Shown here one piece after another: positions 8,730 through 46,649 of a DNA stretch of 47,326 bases. A program made the position numbers and the translations under genes. The notes beneath the pieces are model-generated. The model was not told the DNA's origin, searched no databases, and saw nothing but the letters and a program-made list of their open reading frames with translations. The stretch covers positions 1 to 47,326 of the forward strand of contig NASX01000039.1 of NCBI GenBank assembly GCA_002085155.1, read 5' to 3'. The DNA is from Sorangiineae bacterium NIC37A_2. Lineage in GTDB: Bacteria > Myxococcota_A > Polyangia > Polyangiales > Polyangiaceae. Position 1 is the stretch's first letter. Each line of letters opens with the position of its first letter.

Positions 8730-8802
8730 GGGCGCATAGCTCAGTTGGTAGAGCACGGCCCTTACAAGGCTGGGGTCGGCAGTTCGAGCCTGTCTGCGCC
8801 CA
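8730..8802 (+). tRNA. tRNA-Val (anticodon UAC)
   Basis: A 73-nt cloverleaf. The acceptor stem is GGGCGCA/TGCGCCC with discriminator A at 8802. The D arm is GCTC-AGTTGGTA-GAGC. The anticodon arm is CGGCC-CTTACAA-GGCTG, giving TAC (valine). The T arm is GGCAG-TTCGAGC-CTGTC. CCA is not encoded. No direct repeat of its 3' end was seen nearby, so there is no sign that it serves as an integration site here. Confidence 0.96.
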
Positions 8803-9000
8803 CTCCGAGGTCCTCCCCCGCGAAGAAGCGGGACGCATGCCCCCGCCGGCACTTCCCTCCTCAGGGGCCCGGCGAGTGAGGCCGTCTCCCCCTCCGGGGC
8901 CCCCTCCGGGGCGCCGGAGAGCCAGTGGGGGCACCCGCGTGGGCCGGCTCTTCACACTCCATGGTGGCATGGTGGGTCCTCCGAAAAGGCTAGCCTCCGG

Positions 9001-9131
9001 GGAGTCTGGGCGCTGCCCACTCCTCGCAGCGCGTCCCCCCCTTAGCCCCCGCGGGCGCTCGGGAGTCTGGGCGCGGCCTCCTCCTCGCAGCGCGTCCGCC
9101 TCCTCGCCTCCGCGGGCGCTCCGGAGTCTGG
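9001..9131. repeat. 61-bp tandem repeat, two copies plus a stub
   Basis: GGAGTCTGGGCGC begins at 9001 and recurs at 9062, and GGAGTCTGG recurs at 9123, an exact 61-bp spacing. The two full units (9001-9061 and 9062-9122) share CTCCTCGCAGCGCGTCC and CCGCGGGCGCTC blocks and differ at scattered positions. The third copy breaks off after nine bases. It is non-coding as far as I can tell. It is too few and too long a unit for a CRISPR array. Confidence 0.85.
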
Positions 9132-9608
9132 TCGATAGTTGGGGAAGGGGGGAGCGAGGCGCTCGAAGGGGGGGCCCTCGCGGCAGCAGGGGGGCAGGAG
9201 GACGAGCCGAGCACGCGGCGCTGGGGCTCGGGATCGCTTTGCCAATAGTTAGTGAGAAAGGTCTGCGAGGGAAGCGCGTCCCTAGTCGGACGTTGGGCCA
9301 AGACTGGTGGTCGCTTGCCTCTCGGCGCAGCTCCTTCACGCGGTAGGTGCAGGAGCGATGATGAATGCGTGAGCTTGTGGGCGGTTCGGGAGAGGCGAAC
9401 AGCCGAAGTTGGGCCACTGGTTCTACCGATTTGCGGTGCTGGGCAGGCTCATCGGGGGAGAAAGTGAATTTTTTTCGAGCGAATGCGAGAGCGCGTGTAG
9501 GTGCAATAGCTCGCGTGCCCTACGCGTATTCCCTGGAAATTAGAGGGATTTGTGATCGCATGCTCGCGGAAACGCTGAGGCATTTTGCCTCGACTGAGAC
9601 AAATTTGG

Positions 9609-9638
9609 TTGGTTTTCCGAGGTTTCGTATGGTATGAT
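9609..9638 (+). promoter_or_regulatory. Candidate promoter for the two-HTH regulator
   Basis: TTGGTT (9609-9614), an 18-nt spacer and TATGAT (9633-9638, five of six matches to TATAAT) lie in the AT-richer stretch about 90 nt ahead of the regulator start at 9731. Confidence 0.4.
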
Positions 9639-9730
9639 CTCGGGAGAGCTGGGCTATTTAGCTGGACTAAGAGAGCCGCGCGGGTATTCTGTCGGAAGTG
9701 CTTGGGGGCGGGCCCCAGGTTGGACGGAAA

Positions 9731-10453
9731 ATGCTCAAGCTTGTACCAGTACAGACAGACGCCGAGTTCACATCTCCTGATTCAGGGGTGCGCGCTCGTC
9801 CACAGGCCGTTCTCGGTCGTATTGCTCACGTGCGGGCCGCCGCACCTGAGCCCTTCACCCGGGACGGGCTCCTCACGAGCCAGATCCGGATCGTCGACGT
9901 CGAGCGTCGGGGAACTGAGTTGCGAGTGCTTTTTGCGCTCGGTGCTCCGTCACTGACCGAACGCGAACGCGTCGTTCTGCGCGCTGTTTTTGAAGGAGCT
10001 ACGGACTCCGAGATCGCGCGCCGCCTCTCTGTAACCAGGCAATGTGTGTGCGGTCACGTAACGCACGGGCTCGAGAAGCTCGGTGTCGACTCGCGTTTCC
10101 TCGCGCTTCAGGCGTGGCGCTGCTTGAAGGAGCTCGAGCGCGGTGAACACGGACACCACAAGCTCGCCGTGCTGAACGAAGGTGATGATACCTACGTGAG
10201 TGTTCGCTTCGAGGTGCCTTCGCGCCCCGCTGTGGAATCCCTCATGTCGGTCGCCGAGACCCACGTCGCCTGGCTCGTTTGTGATGGTCTCTCGAACCGA
10301 GAGATCGCCGAGGTTCGCGGCAGCGCCGAGCGCACCGTAGCGAACCAAGTCGGGGCGCTCTTCCGAAAGCTTCAGATCGCACGTCGGACTGACTTGGCGC
10401 TGATTCTCCTCGATCTCGAGGCGAAGGGCGTTCTGCAAGCTGCGACGGTGTGA
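9731..10453 (+). CDS. Transcription regulator with two LuxR-type HTH domains
   Basis: A 240-residue cytoplasmic protein with two helix-turn-helix units of the LuxR/GerE type and no receiver, PAS or autoinducer domain. The first spans about residues 75-132 (LTERERVVLRAVFEGATDSE, then IARRLSVTRQCVCGHVTHGL). The second spans about 173-226 (VAWLVCDGLSNREIAEVRGS, then AERTVANQVGALFRKLQIA). The second is the better match, with the NREIAE and TVANQV core. I chose the ATG at 9731 because GGACGGA sits just upstream; GTG at 9698 is an alternative. It may bind two half-sites as a monomer. Its targets are unknown. A strong terminator follows. Confidence 0.75.
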   Translation: MLKLVPVQTDAEFTSPDSGVRARPQAVLGRIAHVRAAAPEPFTRDGLLTSQIRIVDVERRGTELRVLFALGAPSLTERERVVLRAVFEGATDSEIARRLSVTRQCVCGHVTHGLEKLGVDSRFLALQAWRCLKELERGEHGHHKLAVLNEGDDTYVSVRFEVPSRPAVESLMSVAETHVAWLVCDGLSNREIAEVRGSAERTVANQVGALFRKLQIARRTDLALILLDLEAKGVLQAATV

Positions 10454-10513
10454 TCTGGGATCGCGTGGGGTCGGCTTCGGCCGATTCCTCGTGTGGGAGG
10501 ACAAAAGGGGTAC

Positions 10514-10560
10514 GAAACCGTGGGGACGCGCGAACGCGGCCCGCACGGTTTCTTTTTTTT
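10514..10560 (+). terminator. Strong intrinsic terminator after the two-HTH regulator
   Basis: Perfect 9-bp outer stem GAAACCGTG (10514-10522) / CACGGTTTC (10544-10552), a GC-rich interior, and a run of eight T ending at 10560. This is the clearest rho-independent terminator in the window. Confidence 0.88.
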
Positions 10561-10687
10561 GCCGCTGATGCGGTCAAACTGGGCTCAGCGAGGGGGCTTC
10601 GTCCGTGCGCGGCGGCAAAAGGCGATTCTGAGCCAAAACATAACGGCCCTGCCGGAGAGGGCTCGCTCTGCCGCCCCGAGCACTGTC

Positions 10688-10850
10688 GTGCAACGCTGCG
10701 GTGCAAGACGACGGCGCAACAATGCGGTGTAGCGCTGCGGTGCAACACTGCGACGTGGCACGACGATGCAACACGACGGTGCAACACTGCGACGTGGCAC
10801 GACGATGCAACACGACGGTGCAACACTGCGACGTGGCACGGCGGTGCAAG
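10688..10850. repeat. 13-bp-period tandem repeat array, about 12.5 units
   Basis: Successive 13-mers run from 10688: GTGCAACGCTGCG, GTGCAAGACGACG, GCGCAACAATGCG, GTGTAGCGCTGCG, GTGCAACACTGCG, ACGTGGCACGACG, ATGCAACACGACG, and so on. From 10740 the last three become a higher-order 39-bp unit repeated almost exactly at 10740, 10779 and 10818. The upstream units are more diverged, so the 39-bp expansion looks recent. The array sits between two convergent genes. It has no spacers and is not a CRISPR array. Confidence 0.9.
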
Positions 10851-10860
10851 CGAGAGAGTC

Positions 10861-11892
10861 TTAATCGGTCAGCTTGACCACGACGGACAGGTCGTTATGG
10901 GTCTGTGATTCGACGGGCCCGGGCGCGCCGGGGGCCTGGGTGCGGGTGTGCACGTCCATCGTGAGGGAGACGTCCGAGCTCATGTCGAGGGTCTTCATGT
11001 TCACCTCGGCTTTGCCTTTTCCTTCTCCCTTTAAGCTCACGAGCTCCACGCTCGCGCCGGGAGGCATGCCGGCGGCTTCGAGTTTGCTCGGGGTGCCGAG
11101 CTGCTCGAAGGTGACGTCCACCATGATCTTGTCGCCCTTGATGTCGCGGATCTTGAAGCGCGTGGTCTGAGAGATCTCCATGCCGGCGGTGCGGGTGTTC
11201 TGGCTTGCGGTCCATTCGCCGCCTTTTCCGACAGGACCTTCGGGCAGTGGGAGCACGGCGTTCGACAGGCCGTCCTGGAGATTCTCGAGGAGCTGATAGA
11301 TGCCGGGGTTCTGAGCGGCGAGCTCGACGATCTGGACGCCCCGAAGCTCGCCGCGCGGCGTGAGGAGCTCTTGGATCTTCAGGCCCTCCAGGGCGCTGAA
11401 CGTACTCTTCAGCTGGGCTTTCGCCGCCTCCGGCAGACCTGCCGTGCCGGGGGTGAACTTCTCAAAGGAGGCGACGCGCCGGGCGGTACCATCGGGCAGG
11501 ACCTCCTCCGTCGTATTGGTTCCGGTCACTTCGAAGGCCGTCTTCGGCGCCTCGGGCATCTTCTGGCCCGAGACAGTGATCTTCGGCTGGACCGTGAGCT
11601 TGAGGTGGAACTTCTTCTTCTGGTCTTTTTGGAACGCGTACCGAAGGACCTTCGGATCTTCGCCGGGACTCACGATGGTGACTGCGGCCGTGACGGACGG
11701 AGGATCGCCCGCGGGAGGAGCGGCAGGCTCGGCGGGCGGGGCTTCTTTCTCCGCTTGGGGCGGAGCTTCGGCCGCTTGCTCCTTCTGGGCGGCGGGGTCC
11801 GCCTTGTTCTCCTGCTTGCAGGCGAGAGCGAGGAGCGAAATGACAAGAGCGGATCCGATAGCGGAGGGGCGAGCTGCCCGGACGAGAGACAT
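10861..11892 (-). CDS. Lipoprotein of unknown function (possibly DUF6263-like)
   Basis: A 343-residue secreted lipoprotein. The signal peptide MSLVRAARPSAIGSALVISL is followed by a lipobox ending LALAC (Cys25). A Pro/Ala/Glu/Gln-rich linker comes next (about 26-65), then a globular domain of alternating beta-type segments starting VLRYAFQKDQKKKFHLKLTV. The core features (YAFQKDQKKKF, a threshold-like TGTNTTEEVLPDGTARR, then LPEGPVGKGGEWTASQNTR) resemble proteins grouped as DUF6263, but I assign this only tentatively. The ATG at 11892 is set by the signal peptide; the frame stays open far upstream across the hisC start without protein-like character. It is divergent from hisC. No catalytic motif is visible. 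Confidence 0.8.
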   Translation of the reverse strand: MSLVRAARPSAIGSALVISLLALACKQENKADPAAQKEQAAEAPPQAEKEAPPAEPAAPPAGDPPSVTAAVTIVSPGEDPKVLRYAFQKDQKKKFHLKLTVQPKITVSGQKMPEAPKTAFEVTGTNTTEEVLPDGTARRVASFEKFTPGTAGLPEAAKAQLKSTFSALEGLKIQELLTPRGELRGVQIVELAAQNPGIYQLLENLQDGLSNAVLPLPEGPVGKGGEWTASQNTRTAGMEISQTTRFKIRDIKGDKIMVDVTFEQLGTPSKLEAAGMPPGASVELVSLKGEGKGKAEVNMKTLDMSSDVSLTMDVHTRTQAPGAPGPVESQTHNDLSVVVKLTD

Positions 11893-12121
11893 GGCCGACG
11901 ACCATAGTGGAACGAGTCTGCCCTGCGCTAGCCGCTTTGCTCCTCGGGCAAATGCGCCGGAGCTCGGACCTCGGGGGCGAAGCGGCGCGGAGTCGGGGCT
12001 TTTCCTCGTCATTTTGACTGTCTGGGCCCGAGGGGCATCGAAAGAGCATCGGGGCCGCGGGGACGGAGGTCCCGTCCGCTCAACCCCATTTTCCCCAGGG
12101 ACACGCGGCCGCTCATCCGTG

Positions 12122-12127
12122 TAGGCT
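12122..12127 (+). promoter_or_regulatory. Candidate -10 (TAGGCT) directly ahead of hisC
   Basis: TAGGCT ends 11 nt before the hisC ATG. GGGACA lies about 18 nt upstream as a possible -35 (12098-12103). There is no Shine-Dalgarno before the ATG, so a very short or absent leader would be consistent. Confidence 0.35.
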
Positions 12128-12138
12128 CCCGGCCGCCC

Positions 12139-13227
12139 ATGACCGAAACACTCGTCACGCCCGGTATCGAGGGACTCCGTCCTTACCAAGGGGGCAAGCC
12201 GATCGAAGAGCTCGCACGGGAGCGGGGCCTCACGGATATCGTGAAGCTCGCATCGAACGAGAACCCCTTTGGACCGAGCCCGCGCGCCATCCTGGCCGCC
12301 GTGCAGGCCCTCGGCTCCACTCATCGATATCCCGACGGCTCCGGTCATCGCCTCAGAGAGGCCATCGCTGAGTTTCACGGGGTGTCCCTGGAGGAGGTCA
12401 TCCACGGCAACGGCTCGAACGAGATCCTCGAGCTCTTGGTGCGGACCTTCACGACGCCCGGACACCATATCGTCTTCGGGCGCCCGGCTTTCAGCATGTA
12501 TCCGGTGATCGCGACCGCTCACAACGTCGAGTTCACCGCGGTCCCGACCACCGACGACCTCGTGCACGATCTCGGCAAGATGCGCGAAGCAGTCCGGGAC
12601 ACGACGCGACTCATCATCATCGATAACCCGAATAACCCCACGGGCACTTACGTCTCTCGAGAGGCGCTCACGGGCTTTTTATCATCCTTGCCCGAGCATC
12701 TCGTTGTCGTGCTCGACGAGGCGTACTTCGAGTATGCGACGGCGGAAGACTACCCCGATGGTCTCGCCCTCCGCCATCTGCATCCGAACATCGTGGTCTT
12801 GCGAACCTTCTCGAAGGCTTACGGTCTGGCTGGGCTGCGCGTCGGCTACGGCATCGGCCCGGCGCGTCTTCTCGACTATCTGCACCGTTTGCGCGCGCCC
12901 TTTAACGTCGGCGTCCCGAGCCAAGAGGCAGCCATCGGAGCCCTCAAGGACCTCGCACACCTCAAGGATTCGGTCCTTCACAACGCCCGCGAGCGCGACC
13001 GTCTCGAGCGCCTCCTCGGGCGTTTTGCGCGCCGGGTTTACCCGAGCCAAGGGAACTTCGTGCTCGCTGATTTCGGTCGACCGGCGTTGCCTCTCTATGA
13101 CGCTCTCCTTTCGGAGGGGGTGATCGTGCGGCCGATCCCGGGGCTCGATACATTCCTTCGAGTGAGCGTGGGACTGACGCGAGAGACGGATCGTCTCGAA
13201 GCAGCTCTCGAAAAGGTGGCACGATGA
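12139..13227 (+). CDS. hisC: Histidinol-phosphate aminotransferase
   Basis: PLP-dependent class I/II aminotransferase that makes L-histidinol phosphate from imidazole acetol phosphate. Many HisC-type enzymes also act on aromatic amino acids, which fits a neighbour at the aroA position. KLASNENPFGPSP is the substrate-loop signature. NPNNPTGT binds PLP, DEAYFEYA carries the Asp that contacts the pyridine nitrogen, and Lys226 in RTFSKAYGLAGLRVGY forms the Schiff base. Length (362 aa) is normal. It is first gene of the hisC-to-rpsA run and overlaps the next gene by ATGA at 13224. The context hisC-aroA-cmk-rpsA is widespread in proteobacteria. Confidence 0.93.
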   Translation: MTETLVTPGIEGLRPYQGGKPIEELARERGLTDIVKLASNENPFGPSPRAILAAVQALGSTHRYPDGSGHRLREAIAEFHGVSLEEVIHGNGSNEILELLVRTFTTPGHHIVFGRPAFSMYPVIATAHNVEFTAVPTTDDLVHDLGKMREAVRDTTRLIIIDNPNNPTGTYVSREALTGFLSSLPEHLVVVLDEAYFEYATAEDYPDGLALRHLHPNIVVLRTFSKAYGLAGLRVGYGIGPARLLDYLHRLRAPFNVGVPSQEAAIGALKDLAHLKDSVLHNARERDRLERLLGRFARRVYPSQGNFVLADFGRPALPLYDALLSEGVIVRPIPGLDTFLRVSVGLTRETDRLEAALEKVAR

Positions 13228-37787: not shown

Positions 37788-39416
37788 TTGGTGATAGTTC
37801 TTACAAATAGGGGGTTCTTCTTCGCTTGTGCGGCTTTGGGGCTCGTGATCGCTTGCTCGGCGGGGAGGCCGGTCAGCGACTATGAACCAGGGACGTCGGC
37901 GGGCGGCTCTCCGCTCGGAAGTGGGGGGAGCGGCGCCGTGCCGGTGCCCCCAGAGCAAGAACTCGAGGGATCGTTTCAGGCCCCCGTCGTGAGCGGGCGC
38001 TTGGTGTTTTCGGCGAATCCTTCGAGCAACCGCGTGGCCCAGATCGATGTGGAGACGCTCGCGGTGCGGGTCCTCGATGCCGGGCACGCGCCAACCTACC
38101 TGGCGCCGCTTCCCACGGGGGCGACCGAGGGCGGAGCGCTCGTCCTGAACACGCGGAGCCGAGACGCGAGCCTCTTGCTCCTTTCGAACGAGGAGGCGGG
38201 GGAGACGCGCTCGCTGCGGGTTCCCGTGCACGAAGGAGCGAATTCCTGGGCGATCGGCGCCAGCGGTCGTTTTGCGATCGCTTGGACTGCGAGCGGGGGT
38301 TCGGGTAGCGACGGTCACCAGGACATCACGATCATAGAGCCTTCAGAGAGACCCGACGTGATGCAGCTCGGTGTTGGTTATCGCCCCACCGCGATTCATA
38401 TCTCCGAGGATGAGACGCGGGCTGTGGTTGTCTCGAACCCTGGTCTGACGGTGATTGAGCTGGGTGAGGCGGCGACGTCCGGGGTGCTTCGAGAATACCC
38501 GCTGCCGATGGTGGACGGCGCGCGGGATGTGAGCGTGACGCCGGACGGGCGTTTGGCGCTGGTGCGCCTGCCGGGGCAAGGGTCGCTCTTGATCCTTGAT
38601 CTTGAGACAGGGGAAGAAATAGCGATTCCCTTGCCCGGGGAGCTGAGTGACCTCGATTTGAGCCGCGACGGGGCCCTCGCGGTCGGCGTGATCCGCCCGG
38701 ACGGTCGGGACGACGGTGAGGCGAGTATGGGCGGGGCAGACAACCTGGGGAGCGCAGGTGCGGCTTCGCAGGACGCGCAAAAAAGTCTCGTTCTGACCTT
38801 CCCGCTGGAGCGCATCCTCTCCAATCCGAGTCAGTTCGACGTGGTTGAGGTCGAAGACTTTGTCGGCAGCGTCTCGCTCACCGAGGACCAAAGGAGCATC
38901 CTCGCCTTCACGAACGCGCTCGCGAATCCTCGGGTCTGGATCATTGATGCCGAGACCCGAAGCCAGCGCGCCGTCGACTTGCGAGCGCCGGTGAAGAGCG
39001 TGCTGCCCTCTCCGGATGGCCGTCACGCTGTCGCTGTTCTGAGTCCTCCGTCGGGCAGCACCAGCCGAGGGGCAGTGGCGTTTTTGCCGATCGATCGGCC
39101 TTTACCGCCGCGCATCGAGGGGACGTCGTCGCTGGTTTTCCACGTGGTCTTCTCACCGGAAGGCGACCGCGCGCTGATCACAACAAGAGGTGACTCGAGC
39201 ACCAAGAGCGTGGCGCTCGTCGCAGGGTTCCCGACGCTCTCGGTCCAGAGCTTTGAGCTACCCAGCCTCGCGCTCGCCGCGTTCATCGTGGGGCCCCTCG
39301 AAAAGGGAATCGTCTCCCAAGCACATCCCGAGGGGCGCATCACCTTCATCGACTTGCCGCGAGGCGAAGTCGTCACGCTCACTGGTTATGAACTTGGGAG
39401 CAGGGTCATCGAATGA
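37788..39416 (+). CDS. Propeller-like lipoprotein A of a four-gene surface cluster
   Basis: A 542-residue lipoprotein. The signal peptide ends LGLVIAC (Cys23), and a Gly/Ser-rich linker (GTSAGGSPLGSGGSG) leads to a long repeat region. There, short strand pairs such as FSANPSSNRVAQIDVETLAV recur, along with VGYRPTAIHISEDETRAVVV, VTPDGRLALVRLPGQGSLLI and LSRDGALAVG, a YVTN/WD-type beta-propeller spacing of about 40-50 residues. The C-terminus AHPEGRITFIDL, then GEVVTLTGYELGSRVIE, matches the next protein closely. The start is TTG 37788 or GTG 37791; GAGGGGG precedes it. It overlaps the next gene by four bases (ATGA). No enzyme motif is seen. It probably acts on the outer-membrane surface. Confidence 0.82.
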   Translation: MVIVLTNRGFFFACAALGLVIACSAGRPVSDYEPGTSAGGSPLGSGGSGAVPVPPEQELEGSFQAPVVSGRLVFSANPSSNRVAQIDVETLAVRVLDAGHAPTYLAPLPTGATEGGALVLNTRSRDASLLLLSNEEAGETRSLRVPVHEGANSWAIGASGRFAIAWTASGGSGSDGHQDITIIEPSERPDVMQLGVGYRPTAIHISEDETRAVVVSNPGLTVIELGEAATSGVLREYPLPMVDGARDVSVTPDGRLALVRLPGQGSLLILDLETGEEIAIPLPGELSDLDLSRDGALAVGVIRPDGRDDGEASMGGADNLGSAGAASQDAQKSLVLTFPLERILSNPSQFDVVEVEDFVGSVSLTEDQRSILAFTNALANPRVWIIDAETRSQRAVDLRAPVKSVLPSPDGRHAVAVLSPPSGSTSRGAVAFLPIDRPLPPRIEGTSSLVFHVVFSPEGDRALITTRGDSSTKSVALVAGFPTLSVQSFELPSLALAAFIVGPLEKGIVSQAHPEGRITFIDLPRGEVVTLTGYELGSRVIE

Positions 39417-41026
39417 TTCTCAAAAGGAAAAGAGAGCAAATATCGGCTCGCGCTCGTCTCCTGCCTTTGATCCTCGCTGGGCTGGTCCTTTCGGTGGGAC
39501 TCGCGAGCGGGTGCTCCGCTTCGGAGAGCGGCGGAGCGGACGGTTCATTCGTATGGGACGACCTCGGGAACCTCCCGGGAACGGGCGGCCGCTCGAGCGG
39601 GGGAGATGATGGGCTCACAGGTGATGGACAAGGGGGAGCTCCGCCCTTGCCCGAAGAGCAGGAGGATGAGTCCGCTTTCCGAGCGCCGGTTGCGACGGGC
39701 AGCTTTCTCTGGAGCGCGAATCCTGAGAGCGGGCGCGTGGCGCTGCTCGACGCCCGGGATGCGAGCGTTCGCTTGCTCAGCGCCGGTCTCCGGCCGACGG
39801 AGGTGTTCGGGCTGCCCTCTCCTTCGGGGAAACCTCGGGCCATCGTACAGAACCAAGGCTCCAGCGATGCCTCGATTCTTACGTTCGACGGCGAGTCGAT
39901 CAGCGAACAGCGCATTGTGACGCCCGAGTTTACCAATCGATGGGCCGTTTCGGACGATGGGAAGTGGGCGGTGGCGTTCGGGGTCGAGGAGAAAAAGGGC
40001 TCTTTTGACCCGACCCAGGGGCTTCAGGAGATCGCTGTCGTCGACCTCGAGGACTTTGAGCGACCGCCGGTGCGGCTGACCGTCGGTTACAGGCCGCGTT
40101 CGGTTGTGCTTCGTGAGGAGCGCGCGGTGGTTGTATGCGAGGACGGTATCGCGCTGGTGTCCTTGGGTGACACAGTGGAGCTCGAGGATTGGCTGGAGCT
40201 GGGGCCGGGAGCGGGCCTCGATACTTCGGTGACGGCGGACGGCCTGCGGGCCCTTGTGCGCCACCCGGGGGAGAGCAGCTTCGAAGTTTTCGATCTCGAG
40301 TCCCTGGGCGAGCCCCGCCGCGTCGTGATGGGCGGGAGTGTGACGGATGTGGATCTGACCGATTCCGGGCGAGTCGTGGCTGTAGCGCGGGACGCGGGGG
40401 AGGTTGTCACGTTCCTGCTCGATGAGCTCGATGAGACAGACGCCGCGATCGCGAGGACGACGATTGACGATGCGGTGATCGGGAGCGCGGCGGTGGCGAA
40501 AAACGGCGACCGCGCCGTGCTGTATACGACCGCCGCCCGGGACAAACAGGTCACCGCCATCGACCTGAGACCGGGCGCGGATTTCTTGAAGTCCCGCAAG
40601 GTCTCCATTCAACACGCGATCACCGGGGTGGTCCTGAGCGACGATGGGGCCTCGGCCATTGTTTACGGGCCTGGAGCCGAATCGGGCAAAGGAGCGTTCA
40701 GCGTAGTGACGCTCGACCGGGAACGTTTTGCCCGTGTGGTCGGGACGAACGCGCCGATCCAGGCCGTATCCGTTGCTTCGTTCGGCTTCCTCGTCGCGGC
40801 TCATTCCTCTGCCGTTTCCGAAGCTCACGTAGGCCGGTTGCCGGAGCTCGGAGTGGATCGGTTCGTCCTCGGGAGTCGTCCGCTCTCGATCGGAATCTTG
40901 GAGGCCGAAGGGGTCGGTTATGTCGCGCAGGCGCACCCGGAGGGGCGCATCACGTTCATTGGGATTCGGAGCGGGGAAGTTCGCAGCGTGAGTGGCTACG
41001 AGCTCTCCGCAGAGGTGGTGGAATAA
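39413..41026 (+). CDS. Propeller-like lipoprotein B, paralogue of A
   Basis: A 537-residue lipoprotein. A basic N-terminus and hydrophobic segment lead to LASGC (Cys34), then a Gly/Asp/Ser-rich linker (GTGGRSSGGDDGLTGDGQGG). The propeller-like body parallels protein A: FLWSANPESGRVALLDARDA, RLTVGYRPRSVVLREERAVV, GGSVTDVDLTDSGRVVAVAR. It ends AQAHPEGRITFIGIRSGEVR, then SVSGYELSAEVVE, nearly the same as A. An AFRAPVATG / SFQAPVVSG block after the linker is also shared. The two are therefore tandem duplicates that diverged. It overlaps A (ATGA at 39413) and the next gene (TAATG at 41024-41028). No catalytic motif is seen. Confidence 0.84.
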   Translation: MILKRKREQISARARLLPLILAGLVLSVGLASGCSASESGGADGSFVWDDLGNLPGTGGRSSGGDDGLTGDGQGGAPPLPEEQEDESAFRAPVATGSFLWSANPESGRVALLDARDASVRLLSAGLRPTEVFGLPSPSGKPRAIVQNQGSSDASILTFDGESISEQRIVTPEFTNRWAVSDDGKWAVAFGVEEKKGSFDPTQGLQEIAVVDLEDFERPPVRLTVGYRPRSVVLREERAVVVCEDGIALVSLGDTVELEDWLELGPGAGLDTSVTADGLRALVRHPGESSFEVFDLESLGEPRRVVMGGSVTDVDLTDSGRVVAVARDAGEVVTFLLDELDETDAAIARTTIDDAVIGSAAVAKNGDRAVLYTTAARDKQVTAIDLRPGADFLKSRKVSIQHAITGVVLSDDGASAIVYGPGAESGKGAFSVVTLDRERFARVVGTNAPIQAVSVASFGFLVAAHSSAVSEAHVGRLPELGVDRFVLGSRPLSIGILEAEGVGYVAQAHPEGRITFIGIRSGEVRSVSGYELSAEVVE

Positions 41027-42603
41027 TGAGTAGGTGGGACATTCGACTATTTTCGATCGGAATCTCCCTTTCGCTCTTCGCCTGTGGGGGGAGAGATCCG
41101 AAATGGGACGTCGCTTTCGAACGAGGAAAAACGATAGGGCTGAGCGGCAGCGTGGCCGCTATCGACGAAGGATCCGACGAGCTGATTTTCCTGAGCTCCA
41201 AGAAGCGGAGATCTCTCGAGGTGAATCGGTTCCCGCTCAACGAAGGCGTGAGCTTTATGGCAGCGAGCCAGGACGGGGAGCGGCTCTTCGTGCTTTCGCA
41301 GGGCAAAGTGCCTCGGGTGCGGGCTGAAGATCCGCCACCGACCCTCCAAATCTTCTCCGGCGGGACCAAGCCGAAGCTCGAGCGCGAGCTCGAGCTCGAC
41401 GACCCGATGGGCTCGCTCGCCCTCGATCCGGAGGGGGAGTTCGCGGTGGCTTTTTCCGGGAGTGCCATCGTCACGAATCCGAACGAGCTCGTTCTGATCG
41501 ACCTCAAGGACGAAAAATCGAAGCCCCGACCGAAGACGCTCCGCTCTTTCGGCGGCGCGCCGGTCGGCCTCGTTTTCACGGGGCCACTCGCCATGCCAGA
41601 GGGCGACCCGCGCCGTTTCCTCGTGGCTCGCACCGACCGGGACATCGCCCTCGTCGACCTGAGTCATCTCGAACGAAGTGAGGTAACGGTGCAGCTTCCG
41701 AAGAACTCGGCGGGGACCCGCCTGGCTCCGGAACAAGTCGTCTATAGCGATGGCGATCCGGATGACCCGACGGACGCGCGTTTGGCAGTTCGTCTGAACG
41801 GCAGTTCGGACGTGGTCTTGTGTCAGTTCGCTCCGCCGACCGCCGAAGGGCGCGACTTCTCGCTCCGCGTGAATATCGTGGACGTGGGCGGGGTGCCGAG
41901 TGCGATCGAGTTCGTGCAGACGGACCGAGGGCTCAGGCTCGCGGCGCTGGTCCCCACGCGCTCTCGGGCCACCTTGGTCGATCCCTACACGACCGCGACG
42001 GAGGTCGTGGAGCTGGGCGCGCCTTACTCGCGCATGTCACGCATCACAGGCGCCCTCGACTCTCCCCCGGAGGGCGGAGATGTGGCGCTCCTCTGGGGCG
42101 GGGACGCTCGGCGGATTGCCTTTTGGTCTTTGGGCTCGACGAGCGGAACCCCCTACCGAAGTGTAGACTCGACGGATCTCAGTGTGCCTCTCGCGGCGGT
42201 GCTCGACGTGGGCGGCGTCAATGGCCACTTGAAGGTCCTCCTCTCGAACGATCCTCGGCGCTTCTTCGTCCTCGACCTCGTCAAGCGCGAGTCTTTCCCG
42301 CTCGAGACGCGGAGCGGCGACTACAAGATCAGCGTCGCTCGGGACGGCGGGCGCATCTGGGCGGCAGCTTCAGCGACCGAGGCGGTCTCGATGATCGATC
42401 TTACAGATCTTCATCCGACGTCCTTTACGGCAGGGAGCCAGATCTCTGAGGTGTTCGATATCGCTCGGGACGACGGCGGCCGCGCGATGATCCTCGTGCA
42501 CGGCGCGAGCCAGGGCCTCTCCGTGACCGTCGGAGACGCTTATCAGCCGGATCCCACCGAGTCCGAATACTTCCCCGCACTTCATCTCTGGGGGCTTCGA
42601 TGA
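41026..42603 (+). CDS. Propeller-like lipoprotein C of the surface cluster
   Basis: A 525-residue lipoprotein with a short signal peptide ending SLSLFAC (Cys20). It has no long linker, unlike A and B. The body shows propeller-like repeats: VAAIDEGSDELIFLSSKKRR, MAASQDGERLFVLSQGKVPR, PMGSLALDPEGEFAVAFSGS, VPLAAVLDVGGVNGHLKVLL, ISVARDGGRIWAAASATEAV. The end (YQPDPTESEYFPALHLWGLR) differs from A and B. Distant relation to A and B is probable from the repeat pattern. The start is ATG 41026 in TAATG with the stop of B, and it overlaps the barrel gene by ATGA at 42600. Function is unknown; the coupling argues for a complex with A, B and the barrel. Confidence 0.8.
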   Translation: MSRWDIRLFSIGISLSLFACGGRDPKWDVAFERGKTIGLSGSVAAIDEGSDELIFLSSKKRRSLEVNRFPLNEGVSFMAASQDGERLFVLSQGKVPRVRAEDPPPTLQIFSGGTKPKLERELELDDPMGSLALDPEGEFAVAFSGSAIVTNPNELVLIDLKDEKSKPRPKTLRSFGGAPVGLVFTGPLAMPEGDPRRFLVARTDRDIALVDLSHLERSEVTVQLPKNSAGTRLAPEQVVYSDGDPDDPTDARLAVRLNGSSDVVLCQFAPPTAEGRDFSLRVNIVDVGGVPSAIEFVQTDRGLRLAALVPTRSRATLVDPYTTATEVVELGAPYSRMSRITGALDSPPEGGDVALLWGGDARRIAFWSLGSTSGTPYRSVDSTDLSVPLAAVLDVGGVNGHLKVLLSNDPRRFFVLDLVKRESFPLETRSGDYKISVARDGGRIWAAASATEAVSMIDLTDLHPTSFTAGSQISEVFDIARDDGGRAMILVHGASQGLSVTVGDAYQPDPTESEYFPALHLWGLR

Positions 42604-43583
42604 AACGCAATCATCAACACTCTGCCATTGTCTTTGGGCTTACCCTTTCGTTCCTCGGCGGAGCACGAGCAGCTTCGGCTCAGGAAGGAGGCCCTTCTTC
42701 CGAGTCAGCCTCCGGGGCCCCGGCCGCAGAGGCTCCGGTTTCCGAGAATCCTCCCGGCCAAGAGCGCGCGGTTTCGCAGGAGAACGCGCCTTCGGTCCCA
42801 GGAGCCGCCGGGCCAGGGGAGGCCGGGACGACAGGCGGAGCCCAGCCGGAGGGCGCGGCCCCCGTCGTCGATCCGGATCCGCCTCCCCGAGCGCCGGAGA
42901 GTCCTTTGGCCCCTGAAGTTTCCCCGGTCGCGGCTCCCCCCGAGCTTGTCCCCGAGCCCGCACCGGACCCGAACACTCTCCCCTTCACCTACCACCAGAT
43001 CCATTTCGATCTGCAGGTCTCCTTCGGTCCTGGGTTCTTGACGGACGCGGCAGCGGATCCGTTCACCTCCACCAAGACCTTCGCCCTCGTGGGTGCGCGG
43101 CTCGGTGTGGCCCCGTGGAGCGCAGGGCGCTTCGCCTTCGCGGCGCTCCTGGATGGCGGCTACGGCTCCATGGGAGGGGACGCGCGCGGGACGCGGACGA
43201 GCTTAGAGCTCGGTCTGCTCGGCGTGGGGCTTGAAGCCCGTTACCATTTTCATCATCAATTCTACGGCTACGCTCGGCTATCGCCTGGTGCTGCTTTCAT
43301 TCAGCGGACCGTCATGAACCCGGGACTTCCGCTCCATGGTGGTGAGTGGGCCTTTGCTCTCGGGGGCCACGCGGGAGTGGCTCTGCGCCTCGCGGGCTCC
43401 TCCGATGGTCGCGTGCGAGAGCCGAGAGTCTGGCTGTTTGCGGAGGCGGGGTATCGCTTTACGGAGAGTCGAGCATCGACGCTCAAGCCGGGGCCAGACA
43501 GCGCCGTTGACGCAGAGCTCGAGGCGCCCGGCCTTTCGCTGTCGGGGCCAGATCTCAGCATCGGCGTTGGCCTGACGTTCTGA
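42600..43583 (+). CDS. Outer-membrane-barrel-like protein of the surface cluster
   Basis: A 327-residue exported protein. The signal peptide MKRNHQHSAIVFGLTLSFLG continues to a likely cleavage near ARAASAQ. A Pro/Ala/Glu-rich linker of about 90 residues (APVVDPDPPPRAPESPLAPE and similar) follows. The last 190 residues alternate polar and hydrophobic positions in strand-sized stretches (HFDLQVSFGPGFL, FALVGARLGVAPW, LELGLLGVGLEARYHF, VALRLAGSSD, RVWLFAEAGYRFTE) and end with Phe (SIGVGLTF), the usual C-terminal signature of outer-membrane barrels. The linker probably crosses the periplasm. It is translationally coupled to lipoprotein C and closes the cluster with a terminator. Confidence 0.82.
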   Translation: MKRNHQHSAIVFGLTLSFLGGARAASAQEGGPSSESASGAPAAEAPVSENPPGQERAVSQENAPSVPGAAGPGEAGTTGGAQPEGAAPVVDPDPPPRAPESPLAPEVSPVAAPPELVPEPAPDPNTLPFTYHQIHFDLQVSFGPGFLTDAAADPFTSTKTFALVGARLGVAPWSAGRFAFAALLDGGYGSMGGDARGTRTSLELGLLGVGLEARYHFHHQFYGYARLSPGAAFIQRTVMNPGLPLHGGEWAFALGGHAGVALRLAGSSDGRVREPRVWLFAEAGYRFTESRASTLKPGPDSAVDAELEAPGLSLSGPDLSIGVGLTF

Positions 43584-43601: not shown

Positions 43602-43635
43602 GACGGCGTCTTGGGTCGTAGCCCGGGACGCCGTC
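43602..43635. terminator. Bidirectional hairpin between convergent genes
   Basis: Perfect arms GACGGCGTC (43602-43610) and GACGCCGTC (43627-43635) over a 16-nt loop, with outer AAGAGTC/GAGTCTT elements that nearly pair. It lies between the barrel gene and the convergent repeat-protein gene and has short pyrimidine tails on both sides. Confidence 0.6.
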
Positions 43636-43641
43636 GAGTCT

Positions 43642-45378
43642 TCATTCGGTCGTCGCCGGCTGGCTCAGCTCGATAGGGATGTACAGAAGACGGAGCTCGC
43701 TCGCCGCGCCCTTGCGAGTAAAGCCAGTCATGCCGAAGAGGATGTTCCAGAAGTGTCCGTCAGGACGCTTGCCGTAGGAGAAGAGGGGCAGGAAGTGGAA
43801 CTGCCAGTCGACGCCGTTCTTGTAGCGCTTCTCGTGATAATAAGTGTTGGCGACGATGGTCGAGGTCGAGTCTTGTTCGGCGAAGCGCCAGAAGAGGGGG
43901 AATCCGATGGTCTGGCGAGAGGTGTGCGACTGGAAGTCGAAGAACAAGGGTGCGACGACGCGGTGCTGTTTTCCGCCACTCTCTCCCACGAAGATGCTCG
44001 GGAGCGCCTTGAAGGACCAGCCGTCGAGATCTCGCTTGTAGTTGAAGATGGGCGTGACCCAGGTCGAGCGGGAGACGCCAAAGCGTTCACTGTCAGAGTA
44101 GAAGGGGAAGAAGACGGTGGTCTGCTCCCTGGGGCTGACGTTCGAGTAGAGGAACGGGAAAAATAGCTTCCGGTCGAGCCCGATCGACGGCTCTCGGTGG
44201 TGGAAATAGAGCGGCGTGATCATGTCGAGTTCGACATGTCCCCGGTGCCGCGCGTAGAGGTAGGTGACGAAGGTCTTGTCGTGAGCTTCGCCCGTTCGAT
44301 TCAGGAAAAGCGGGGTGATGAGGAGGTTCTGATGTCCCTTGTACCCGTAGTGAAAGAAGGGCAGGAGCGTCGTGTGACGCTCATCTTTGCCCCACATGGA
44401 GTAGTAGACGGGGAGGAAGTGGAAGATGCTCCGCTCGCCCTTCTCTTCCCGGTAATAGGGGCCGTAGACGTTCAGCCAGTCTTCGCTGCGCGGTGAATAC
44501 CGGTAGTAGTGGAGCAGCGGAGGGATGACCTCGTAGAGGCGGGACTTGTTCTGGCCGAAGAAATAGAAGGGCGCGATGCCGAGATCGATGTCCGAGGCGG
44601 TGCGAGTGTCGCAGTGCTGTCCGCCTGTGAACGAACAGAAAGCAGGCCCGACGATGTTGAGGCCGCCTTCGGCGTTCCGCTTCATCATCGTCAAGAGCGG
44701 CGGGATCACCGTGTAGGCGCCGTCCGGTCGCGTGCCGGTCATGTAGAGCGGGAACAGCCAATCGTCGCTCTTGTTCGGTCCGCGGCGATTCACGAAGGGG
44801 CCGACGATCGTGCTCCGCTCATTTTCGAGAGGGTTCTGAACGTTCCAGAACAGCGGGAACAGGATGTCGTCTTGATGCTGGGGTGCGCGACGATTGTAGT
44901 AAAACAGATAGAGCGAAGCGCGATCTTGTCCCGGGAGCTCGAGCTCGGGGAGCTGAACCTTCTTGGTTCGCTCACCCCACAGCGGGAACAACACGCGGTA
45001 GCGCTCGACGGGATTCGACTCTTCGAAATACAGGCCGTAGAAGCGGCGCCGGGTCGCGGGCCTGCTCAGCGAGTCCTCCTGCATGAAGTCGCTGCCGATG
45101 GTCTCTTGGACGCTCTCGCTCATCGCGAGGGGATCGTCGGGGAGCGTGGGCTCGTCGCCCGCGCTGAGGGTCGACTCTTCGCCAGCGGCCGCGTGCGTCT
45201 CGGGCATGTCCGAGGAAGGAGCGGGGCGACTCGAGGGGCCAGGGGAGGCGCCGATCGGCGCCATGTCGGGCAGCTGGCCCTGGGCAAACGCAGAAGGAGC
45301 GAGCCCGAGCAGTAGGAGCAGCGGAGCGTAGCCGACGTTTTTCCGGGCGCGGAGGGGTCGAGGGAAGCTGAGGCTCAT
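43642..45378 (-). CDS. Exported protein of short FPLF/PLY-type repeats
   Basis: A 578-residue exported protein, with signal peptide (LLLLLGLAPSAFAQ, cleavage after AFA) and a Pro/Ser/Glu-rich linker to about residue 105. The rest consists of about 18 or more short strand-hairpin units with an aromatic-hydrophobic core: VLFPLWGERT, ILFPLFWNVQ, WLFPLYMTGT, VIPPLLTMM, IAPFYFFGQN, VIPPLLHYYR, LLPFFHYGYK, ITPLFLNRTG, ITPLYFHHRE, FFPFLYSNVS, FFPFYSDSER, VTPIFNYKRD, VAPLFFDFQS and GFPLFWRFAE, spaced about 20-25 residues. I recognise no named family. ATG 45378 gives the signal peptide; it lies two bases after the hisS stop, so the two are cotranscribed. An outer-membrane or periplasmic structural role is a guess. 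Confidence 0.78.
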   Translation of the reverse strand: MSLSFPRPLRARKNVGYAPLLLLLGLAPSAFAQGQLPDMAPIGASPGPSSRPAPSSDMPETHAAAGEESTLSAGDEPTLPDDPLAMSESVQETIGSDFMQEDSLSRPATRRRFYGLYFEESNPVERYRVLFPLWGERTKKVQLPELELPGQDRASLYLFYYNRRAPQHQDDILFPLFWNVQNPLENERSTIVGPFVNRRGPNKSDDWLFPLYMTGTRPDGAYTVIPPLLTMMKRNAEGGLNIVGPAFCSFTGGQHCDTRTASDIDLGIAPFYFFGQNKSRLYEVIPPLLHYYRYSPRSEDWLNVYGPYYREEKGERSIFHFLPVYYSMWGKDERHTTLLPFFHYGYKGHQNLLITPLFLNRTGEAHDKTFVTYLYARHRGHVELDMITPLYFHHREPSIGLDRKLFFPFLYSNVSPREQTTVFFPFYSDSERFGVSRSTWVTPIFNYKRDLDGWSFKALPSIFVGESGGKQHRVVAPLFFDFQSHTSRQTIGFPLFWRFAEQDSTSTIVANTYYHEKRYKNGVDWQFHFLPLFSYGKRPDGHFWNILFGMTGFTRKGAASELRLLYIPIELSQPATTE

Positions 45379-45380
45379 AT

Positions 45381-46649
45381 TCAAGCCTGGCCCTCGGCGC
45401 TGAGCAGGCTCAGGACGCGTTCGGGGAGCTCCTCGAGCGGGACCTCGAACTGCTCGTGAGAAGCCATGTTTTTCACCTGAGCTACACCGCGCTCAAGCTC
45501 GCTGTCGCCGAGCACCACAGCGACTCGAGCGTTCATCGAGCCGGCTCGGCGCAGCTTGCTCTTGAGCGATCCATCTCGCCCGTCGATCTCCACGTGAGCG
45601 CCTCGGGCGCGGAGCGCGGCGCCGGCCTTGAGCGCGGCTCGACCGGCCTGGCCGCCGAGGGGTGCGAAGAAGCAGAGGGGCGGCGGGGCAGGCCCGACGT
45701 CGCCGAGAGCGAGCAAGAGGCGCTCGAGGCCGAGCGCAAATCCGATCGCGGGAACGTCCTCGCCGCCGAGGTCGCGGATCATCGAGTTGTAACGGCCGCC
45801 CCCGAGGATCGCGTTCTGGGACCCGATTTCTCCCGAGTCTGCGGTGAGCTCGAAGCAGGTGCGCGTGTAATAGTCGAGGCCGCGCACGAGCTTCGGATCG
45901 ACCTTGTAGGGGGTGCCGAGGGCATCGAGGGCCGCGCGCAGCCCGTCGAAATGAGCCTTGTCGTCCTCGGTGAGCGAATCGAGCAGGAGCGGTGCGCTCT
46001 TCGAGGCCTCGATGTCGCGGGGATCTTTCGAGTCGAGGATCCGGAGCGGATTGTCGCCGAGGCGCGCCTGCGCGTGTTCGCTGAGCTCTGCTCGGATGGG
46101 CTCGAAATACTCGCGGAGGCGGGCTCGATAGGCTTCGCGGGCCTCGGCGCCGCCGAGGGAGTTCACATGGATCGTGACACCCTTGAGGCCGAGGTTCGTG
46201 GTGAAGCGGTAGAGCAGATCGATGAGCTCCGCGTCGGAGAGCGGTCCCGGATCGCCGTACAGCTCACAGCCCGCCTGGTGAAACTGGCGATAGCGGCCGC
46301 GCTGGGGCTGTTCGGCGCGGAACATCGGCCCAATGTAGTACCATTTGGTGATGGGCTCTTTGGCCCACTGGCTCTGGCCAATGTAGACGCGGGCGGCGCT
46401 CGGGGTTCCCTCGGGACGGAGCGCGAGAGTTTCGCGGCCGCGCTCGAGAACGAACATCTGTTTCTGGACGACCTCGCTCGTTTCTCCGGTCGACTTGTGG
46501 AAGAGGGCGAGCTCCTCGACGATAGGCGTGCGGAGCTCGCGGTAGCCTGCCTTTTCGACTTCGGCGCGAAACACTCCTTCGACGAACTGGAAGCGGCGGG
46601 CCTCCTCGGGTAGGATGTCGTTCATCCCTTTGACGGCGCGGTATTTCAT
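45381..46649 (-). CDS. hisS: Histidine-tRNA ligase
   Basis: Class II aminoacyl-tRNA synthetase that charges tRNA-His. The ATG at 46649 (MKYRAVKGMNDILPEEARRF, 422 aa) gives the family N-terminus; the earlier in-frame start at 46712 adds non-conserved residues. Motif 2 is KWYYIGPMFRAEQPQRGRYR, followed by QFHQAGCELYG. The histidine-binding HisA/HisB segments LVRGLDYYTRTCFEL and GGGRYNSMIRDLGGEDVPAI then GFALGLERLL (motif 3) are clear. A C-terminal anticodon-binding domain ends RVLSLLSAEG. It is divergent from ruvX, and the repeat-protein gene follows with a two-base gap. Confidence 0.96.
   Translation of the reverse strand: MKYRAVKGMNDILPEEARRFQFVEGVFRAEVEKAGYRELRTPIVEELALFHKSTGETSEVVQKQMFVLERGRETLALRPEGTPSAARVYIGQSQWAKEPITKWYYIGPMFRAEQPQRGRYRQFHQAGCELYGDPGPLSDAELIDLLYRFTTNLGLKGVTIHVNSLGGAEAREAYRARLREYFEPIRAELSEHAQARLGDNPLRILDSKDPRDIEASKSAPLLLDSLTEDDKAHFDGLRAALDALGTPYKVDPKLVRGLDYYTRTCFELTADSGEIGSQNAILGGGRYNSMIRDLGGEDVPAIGFALGLERLLLALGDVGPAPPPLCFFAPLGGQAGRAALKAGAALRARGAHVEIDGRDGSLKSKLRRAGSMNARVAVVLGDSELERGVAQVKNMASHEQFEVPLEELPERVLSLLSAEGQA

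Follow-up and report, generated by a model that had tools for sequence, protein, structure and literature searches.

A gene module conserved across Myxococcota encodes propeller-like lipoproteins and a predicted small outer-membrane barrel

In other bacteria, barrels are assembled and vitamins captured by systems that pair a propeller lipoprotein with an outer-membrane barrel. In BAM, the outer-membrane propeller lipoprotein BamB works with the barrel of BamA. For glycan uptake, an operon encodes the lipoprotein SusD, which is helical, and the barrel SusC, a TonB-dependent transporter. In vitamin B12 uptake by Bacteroides, the barrel is BtuB, a large TonB-dependent transporter, and it is capped by the surface lipoprotein BtuG, a seven-bladed propeller, one face of which binds the ligand (PMC10404256).

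We analyzed a 47,326-nucleotide stretch of DNA from Sorangiineae bacterium NIC37A_2 (hereafter the window), in which an earlier note had described four coupled genes for three propeller-like lipoproteins and an outer-membrane-barrel-like protein. The organism belongs to Myxococcota, a phylum of social and predatory bacteria; most of what is known of their envelope biology comes from Myxococcus xanthus. The cluster has the following features.

37791-39416, + strand: gene A, lipoprotein, first A-type propeller copy, with the lipobox LVIA-C; falls among the 'first' copies of relatives
37791, + strand: GTG start of gene A; a TTG at 37788, three bases upstream, is an alternative
39413-39416, + strand: ATGA overlap of the A stop and the B start
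39413-41026, + strand: gene B, lipoprotein, second A-type propeller copy, with the lipobox ASG-C at residue 34
39689-40993, + strand: propeller domain of gene B, residues 93-527, ten four-stranded groups (from the model and conservation)
41024-41028, + strand: TAATG overlap of the B stop (41024-41026) and the C start (41026-41028)
41026-42603, + strand: gene C, lipoprotein of the C-type propeller family, an ancient paralogue of A and B (profile homology)
42600-42603, + strand: ATGA overlap of the C stop and the D start
42600-43583, + strand: gene D, signal peptide, Pro/Ala-rich linker, outer-membrane β-barrel, and C-terminal Phe
42990-43580, + strand: barrel domain of gene D, about residues 131-327, OmpA/NspA/OmpW-like (from the model)

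The cluster shares with BtuB-BtuG and BamB-BamA the combination of a propeller lipoprotein and an outer-membrane barrel, and with SusC-SusD the encoding of lipoprotein and barrel in one operon. The likeness to SusCD and BAM raised in the earlier note is only general, D being neither a TonB-dependent transporter nor an Omp85 protein. Membership in SusCD or BtuBG was ruled out, since the D barrel comprises about 200 residues, matches 8-stranded barrels, and has no TonB-dependent plug; BtuB is a large transporter, and D is too small to be one of its type. BAM membership was likewise ruled out by the lack of Omp85 size and of POTRA domains in D, and the window's A, B, and C had no Pfam match to BamB-type repeat families. 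The folds of SusD and SusC are both absent from the cluster.

Whereas BtuG is seven-bladed, the propeller here is larger, with ten blades suggested, and it comes in two families. The barrel fold of D is like those of OmpA, NspA, and OmpW, but D carries an N-terminal Pro/Ala-rich linker in place of the peptidoglycan domain of OmpA. YVTN/lactonase-type and large propellers (eIF3b, eIF2A, and sortilin) have propeller repeats in common with the lipoproteins and give weak profile matches; ten blades, the number suggested here, is a ring size known from sortilin (PMC9356209). The earlier note knew of no described system with such a composition, and we found none in the open-licence literature, nor any family entry for its parts; the general idea of a lipoprotein working with a barrel is familiar.

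Gene coupling and kinship of the lipoproteins

All three overlaps reported to bind the genes are present (ATGA at 39413, TAATG at 41024, and ATGA at 42600), as are the lipobox cysteines at residues 23 of A (counted from the TTG), 34 of B, and 20 of C. D has the long Pro/Ala linker and C-terminal Phe ascribed to it, and a signal peptide besides. In most clusters of relatives, an overlap of -4 or -1 is possible at the C-to-D junction, and the lipoboxes of A and C recur in many relatives; the overlaps are thus not due to chance. Promoter and terminator scans found nothing, and in Pfam no family exceeded the cut-off for A, B, C, or D.

The four genes are real and coupled, but four unlike genes were ruled out. 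A and B are duplicates, with 34% identity over 504 columns (E = 3e-62), and C is a paralogue of both by profiles: pairwise BLAST of C against A or B gave nothing useful, and alignment of the A-type and C-type family profiles by hhalign gave a probability of 99.1 over 425 columns. The cluster is therefore a three-component A-C-D module with one part duplicated. Three propeller lipoproteins, as originally described, occur in some lineages, but most relatives have two. One A-family match on another contig of the same genome (G000:C74) was set aside because it is weak and covers only the signal and linker region.

Trees were built with FastTree and contain some long branches, which makes their fine branching a weak guide. 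In the A-type tree, A of the window groups with 'first' copies and B with 'second' copies within one clade of duplicated loci, and separate duplications of A are found elsewhere, outside this clade. In the joint tree of A and C, every C protein lies on one side together with the divergent middle genes (support, 99), and the other A proteins lie on the opposite side; one middle gene of locus L183, labeled A by the profiles, falls with C. The A/C split thus predates the families sampled, and both genes are retained in complete clusters. At one locus (L186; G146 C386, positions 8785-12376), two adjoining A-type genes of the module hardly differ in the tree and are the product of a very recent tandem duplication.

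Predicted folds, conserved face, and membrane placement

The earlier note had seen propeller-like repeats in A, B, and C; a confident model now bears this out for B, while A and C are assigned only through homology. The AlphaFold2 model of B (mean pLDDT, 86.3; pTM, 0.81) contains 40 strands in residues 93 to 527 and is confidently predicted to be a single large β-propeller. When the strands are read as canonical A-B-C-D blades, they form ten groups whose first strands lie 35 to 54 residues apart. Profiles of single blades recover the remaining blades in register; the signal is clear for blades 3 to 9 and weak for 1, 2, and 10. The model thus suggests, without proving, a ring of ten blades; a natural ten-bladed bacterial propeller, if true, would be uncommon. 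In structural comparison, B aligns along the nine-bladed ring of eIF3b (Z, 17.0; rmsd, 4.3; 367 residues), which together with eIF2A-type rings is among its closest matches; no kinship is read from the Z values obtained with individual propellers. None of the Pfam propeller families (Lactonase, WD40, and SGL) exceeded the cut-off for A, B, or C of the window, nor did any NCBIfam family for B or C, and in some relatives the matches to named propeller families were only weak.

In the model of D, residues 131 to 327 form a barrel whose pLDDT blocks are mostly above 90. The folds predicted for B and D are thus the propeller and the outer-membrane barrel that the earlier note expected. The barrel matches OmpA (Z, 18.2; rmsd, 2.4; 164 residues), NspA (Z, 17.7), and OmpW (Z, 16.4). 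Overall, these matches had Z values of 16 to 18 and an rmsd of 2.3 to 3.0 over 151 to 172 residues, with 2.3 to 2.5 for OmpA and NspA. Of 29 members of the D family, 24 end in Phe and 2 in Tyr, and 6 match a Pfam barrel family (best, 1.6e-8). The Pfam scan of these members gave nothing besides barrel-type and chance matches and no peptidoglycan-binding domain; D ends with the barrel. Being an 8-stranded barrel of the OmpA/NspA kind, D appears to be an anchor rather than a transporter. Both ends of an even-stranded barrel face the periplasm, and the linker of D, with a median of about 68 residues in the family, should therefore be periplasmic.

Asp at position +2 after the lipidated Cys is the residue for inner-membrane retention of lipoproteins in E. 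coli. In M. xanthus, inner-membrane lipoproteins are marked by Lys at +2 and extracellular-matrix lipoproteins by Ala at +7 (PMC3222651). Position +2 is Ser in A and B and Gly in C, Lys and Asp are rare there in the families, and Ala at +7 is absent from the three lipoproteins of the window. The lack of these signals favors the outer membrane, and A, B, and C are predicted outer-membrane lipoproteins by a +2 rule; this rule was drawn from a different member of Myxococcota and gives only weak guidance. The tether between the lipid and the propeller is about 50 residues long in A-type proteins and short in C (after Cys20).

Conservation was mapped over 93 A-type proteins thinned to <85% identity, with faces assigned from the strand order of the model and not from coordinates. 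Conservation was higher in loops on the B-C/D-A face than in loops on the opposite face (means of 2.07 versus 1.51 bits; p = 1e-4). Strongly conserved loop positions numbered 19 on the top face and 2 on the bottom face (Fisher p = 6e-5), and 0 of 434 circular shifts of the face labels gave a difference as large. A and B of the window both keep N103, N147, N175, Q205, R227, D270, R283, D312, R326, Q506, H508, R512, and E530 (B numbering), of which N103, N147, N175, Q205, R227, D270, R283, R326, Q506, and H508 are nearly constant in the A-type family. This conserved polar ring sits on the face of B made by the B-C and D-A loops.

Because the face is nearly invariant over the loci sampled, and both duplicates retain it, its target is more likely a constant molecule of the cell or the environment than a surface ligand that changes. 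Of the A-face residues, C retains only a few, for example R256 against R283 (profile alignment read by eye), an indication that the roles of A and C differ. The conserved face can serve directly as a target for ligand searches and mutagenesis.

Conservation of the module in Myxococcota

Neighborhoods were read from genome stretches with a simple codon-usage gene caller, and start codons are approximate. Among 59 genomes, that of the window included, A-type matches occurred in 34 and C-type matches in 31, usually as neighbors. Where D was found, it almost always directly followed C, and genes downstream of divergent C that were missed by the D search mostly encode a signal peptide, a Pro/Ala linker, and a barrel-like region. 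In the gene maps, A-C-D is the common form, with A-A-C-D in the genus of the window and several others; the order is A-C-D-A in two genomes (G016 and G017).

Scanning named genomes for the A family yielded 78 loci, including those of Minicystis rosea, Labilithrix, and Sandaracinus; nearly all were titled Myxococcota or the older 'Deltaproteobacteria'. The module was intact in 63 of these loci (44 A-C-D, 15 A-A-C-D, and 4 A-C-D-A), and many of the remaining loci end at contig edges. A sample of the phylum (n = 379 genomes) had A in 161 genomes and C in 113. In other families and classes, A, C (or divergent C), and D occurred together in 27 of 34 loci, counted by hand from gene maps, with some arranged C-D-A. 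The gene order, for which the earlier note had proposed a survey, is thus conserved across many Myxococcota families.

A larger conserved operon was ruled out, since flanking families are found at few loci and at changing distances; the commonest occurred at 9 loci, at varying distances. One member of the flanking families is an ordinary Ser/Thr kinase, and the flank proteins sampled were ordinary or unassigned. The module, retained across Myxococcota, is a set separate from the propeller-barrel pairs of other bacteria.

Several genomes of the same family lack the module, large and nearly complete ones among them, and it is thus dispensable. G015, G369, G395, and G397 (genus g14) are without it, as are other genomes of the family, while close relatives carry it; it has therefore been lost or gained more than once. 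Locus L183 lies on a metagenome-bin contig titled Bifidobacterium breve and has A, divergent C, and D of the Myxococcota type; the label is probably wrong.

The proposed complex, its alternatives, and downstream surroundings

Gene neighborhood points to joint function, not to physical binding. The products of the module probably form a binding complex of the cell envelope, and we lean slightly toward the reading that the cluster encodes one complex of A-type and C-type propeller lipoproteins with a small barrel, anchored in the outer membrane with the propellers on either its outer or its periplasmic side. In such a complex, the A-type, C-type, and D proteins would bind one another. D, with its small 8-stranded barrel, would hold the assembly in the outer membrane, and its flexible Pro/Ala-rich N-terminus would reach into the periplasm. 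C, on a short tether, would lie beside the membrane and D, and the A-type propellers, on long tethers, would bind one constant ligand or protein partner through the conserved face. The doubling of A in several lineages would give more binding subunits per complex. The wider proposal, of an undescribed outer-membrane complex found throughout the phylum, with ten-bladed propellers from two ancient paralogous families, an OmpA-like anchor, and one invariant ligand or envelope partner, is put forward more tentatively.

The partner of the A face may be internal, an idea we consider rather unlikely. It agrees with the near-constancy of the face across loci, with the expected periplasmic position of the D linker, and with the known case of BamB, a propeller lipoprotein on the inner leaflet, but a peptidoglycan-binding domain is missing from D in Pfam and no conserved envelope-machine gene lies beside the module. 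The genes might instead be only cotranscribed and coregulated, and operon structure by itself does not show binding; nevertheless, the exact set of parts is kept throughout the phylum, its membership stays intact where the order is rearranged, and duplicates of A remain within the cluster, so that the lack of any complex seems quite improbable.

Two further readings assign the propellers a more specific task. One holds that the cluster encodes an anchored set of enzymes, in which the A-type ring resembles lactonases or dehydrogenases, its conserved face is the active site, and C and D serve only as anchors. The conserved Asn, Gln, Arg, Asp, and His clustered on one face are compatible with this, as are weak profile matches to lactonases, PQQ-associated propellers, and the hydrazine synthase beta subunit. 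However, such weak matches are typical of propellers generally and named families stayed below the cut-off for the window proteins, metabolic genes do not recur in the flanks, and a heme or Cys-bound redox center was ruled out, there being no CxxCH motif and, the lipobox Cys aside, no more than one Cys in any of the mature lipoproteins. We therefore regard an enzymatic role as improbable. Small-molecule uptake is slightly less probable still. Here the propellers would capture a ligand and D would pass it through the outer membrane, following the precedent of BtuG, a surface lipoprotein that caps its partner barrel and holds the ligand on one face of the propeller (PMC10404256). OmpW-like barrels do appear among the structural matches of D, but a barrel of 8 strands with neither plug nor TonB-dependent features is too narrow for polar solutes, and recurring transporter genes are not found beside the module.

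Downstream of the cluster, the window encodes a protein of 580 residues that probably has a signal peptide (43642-45384, - strand); its gene is convergent with D. The protein had no Pfam match, is rich in repeated aromatic motifs (LFPLF and FPLFY, for example), and may be a repeat or barrel protein. Between the two convergent genes lies an inverted repeat (43602-43635; GACGGCGTC ... GACGCCGTC) with no T tract, which could be a shared terminator.
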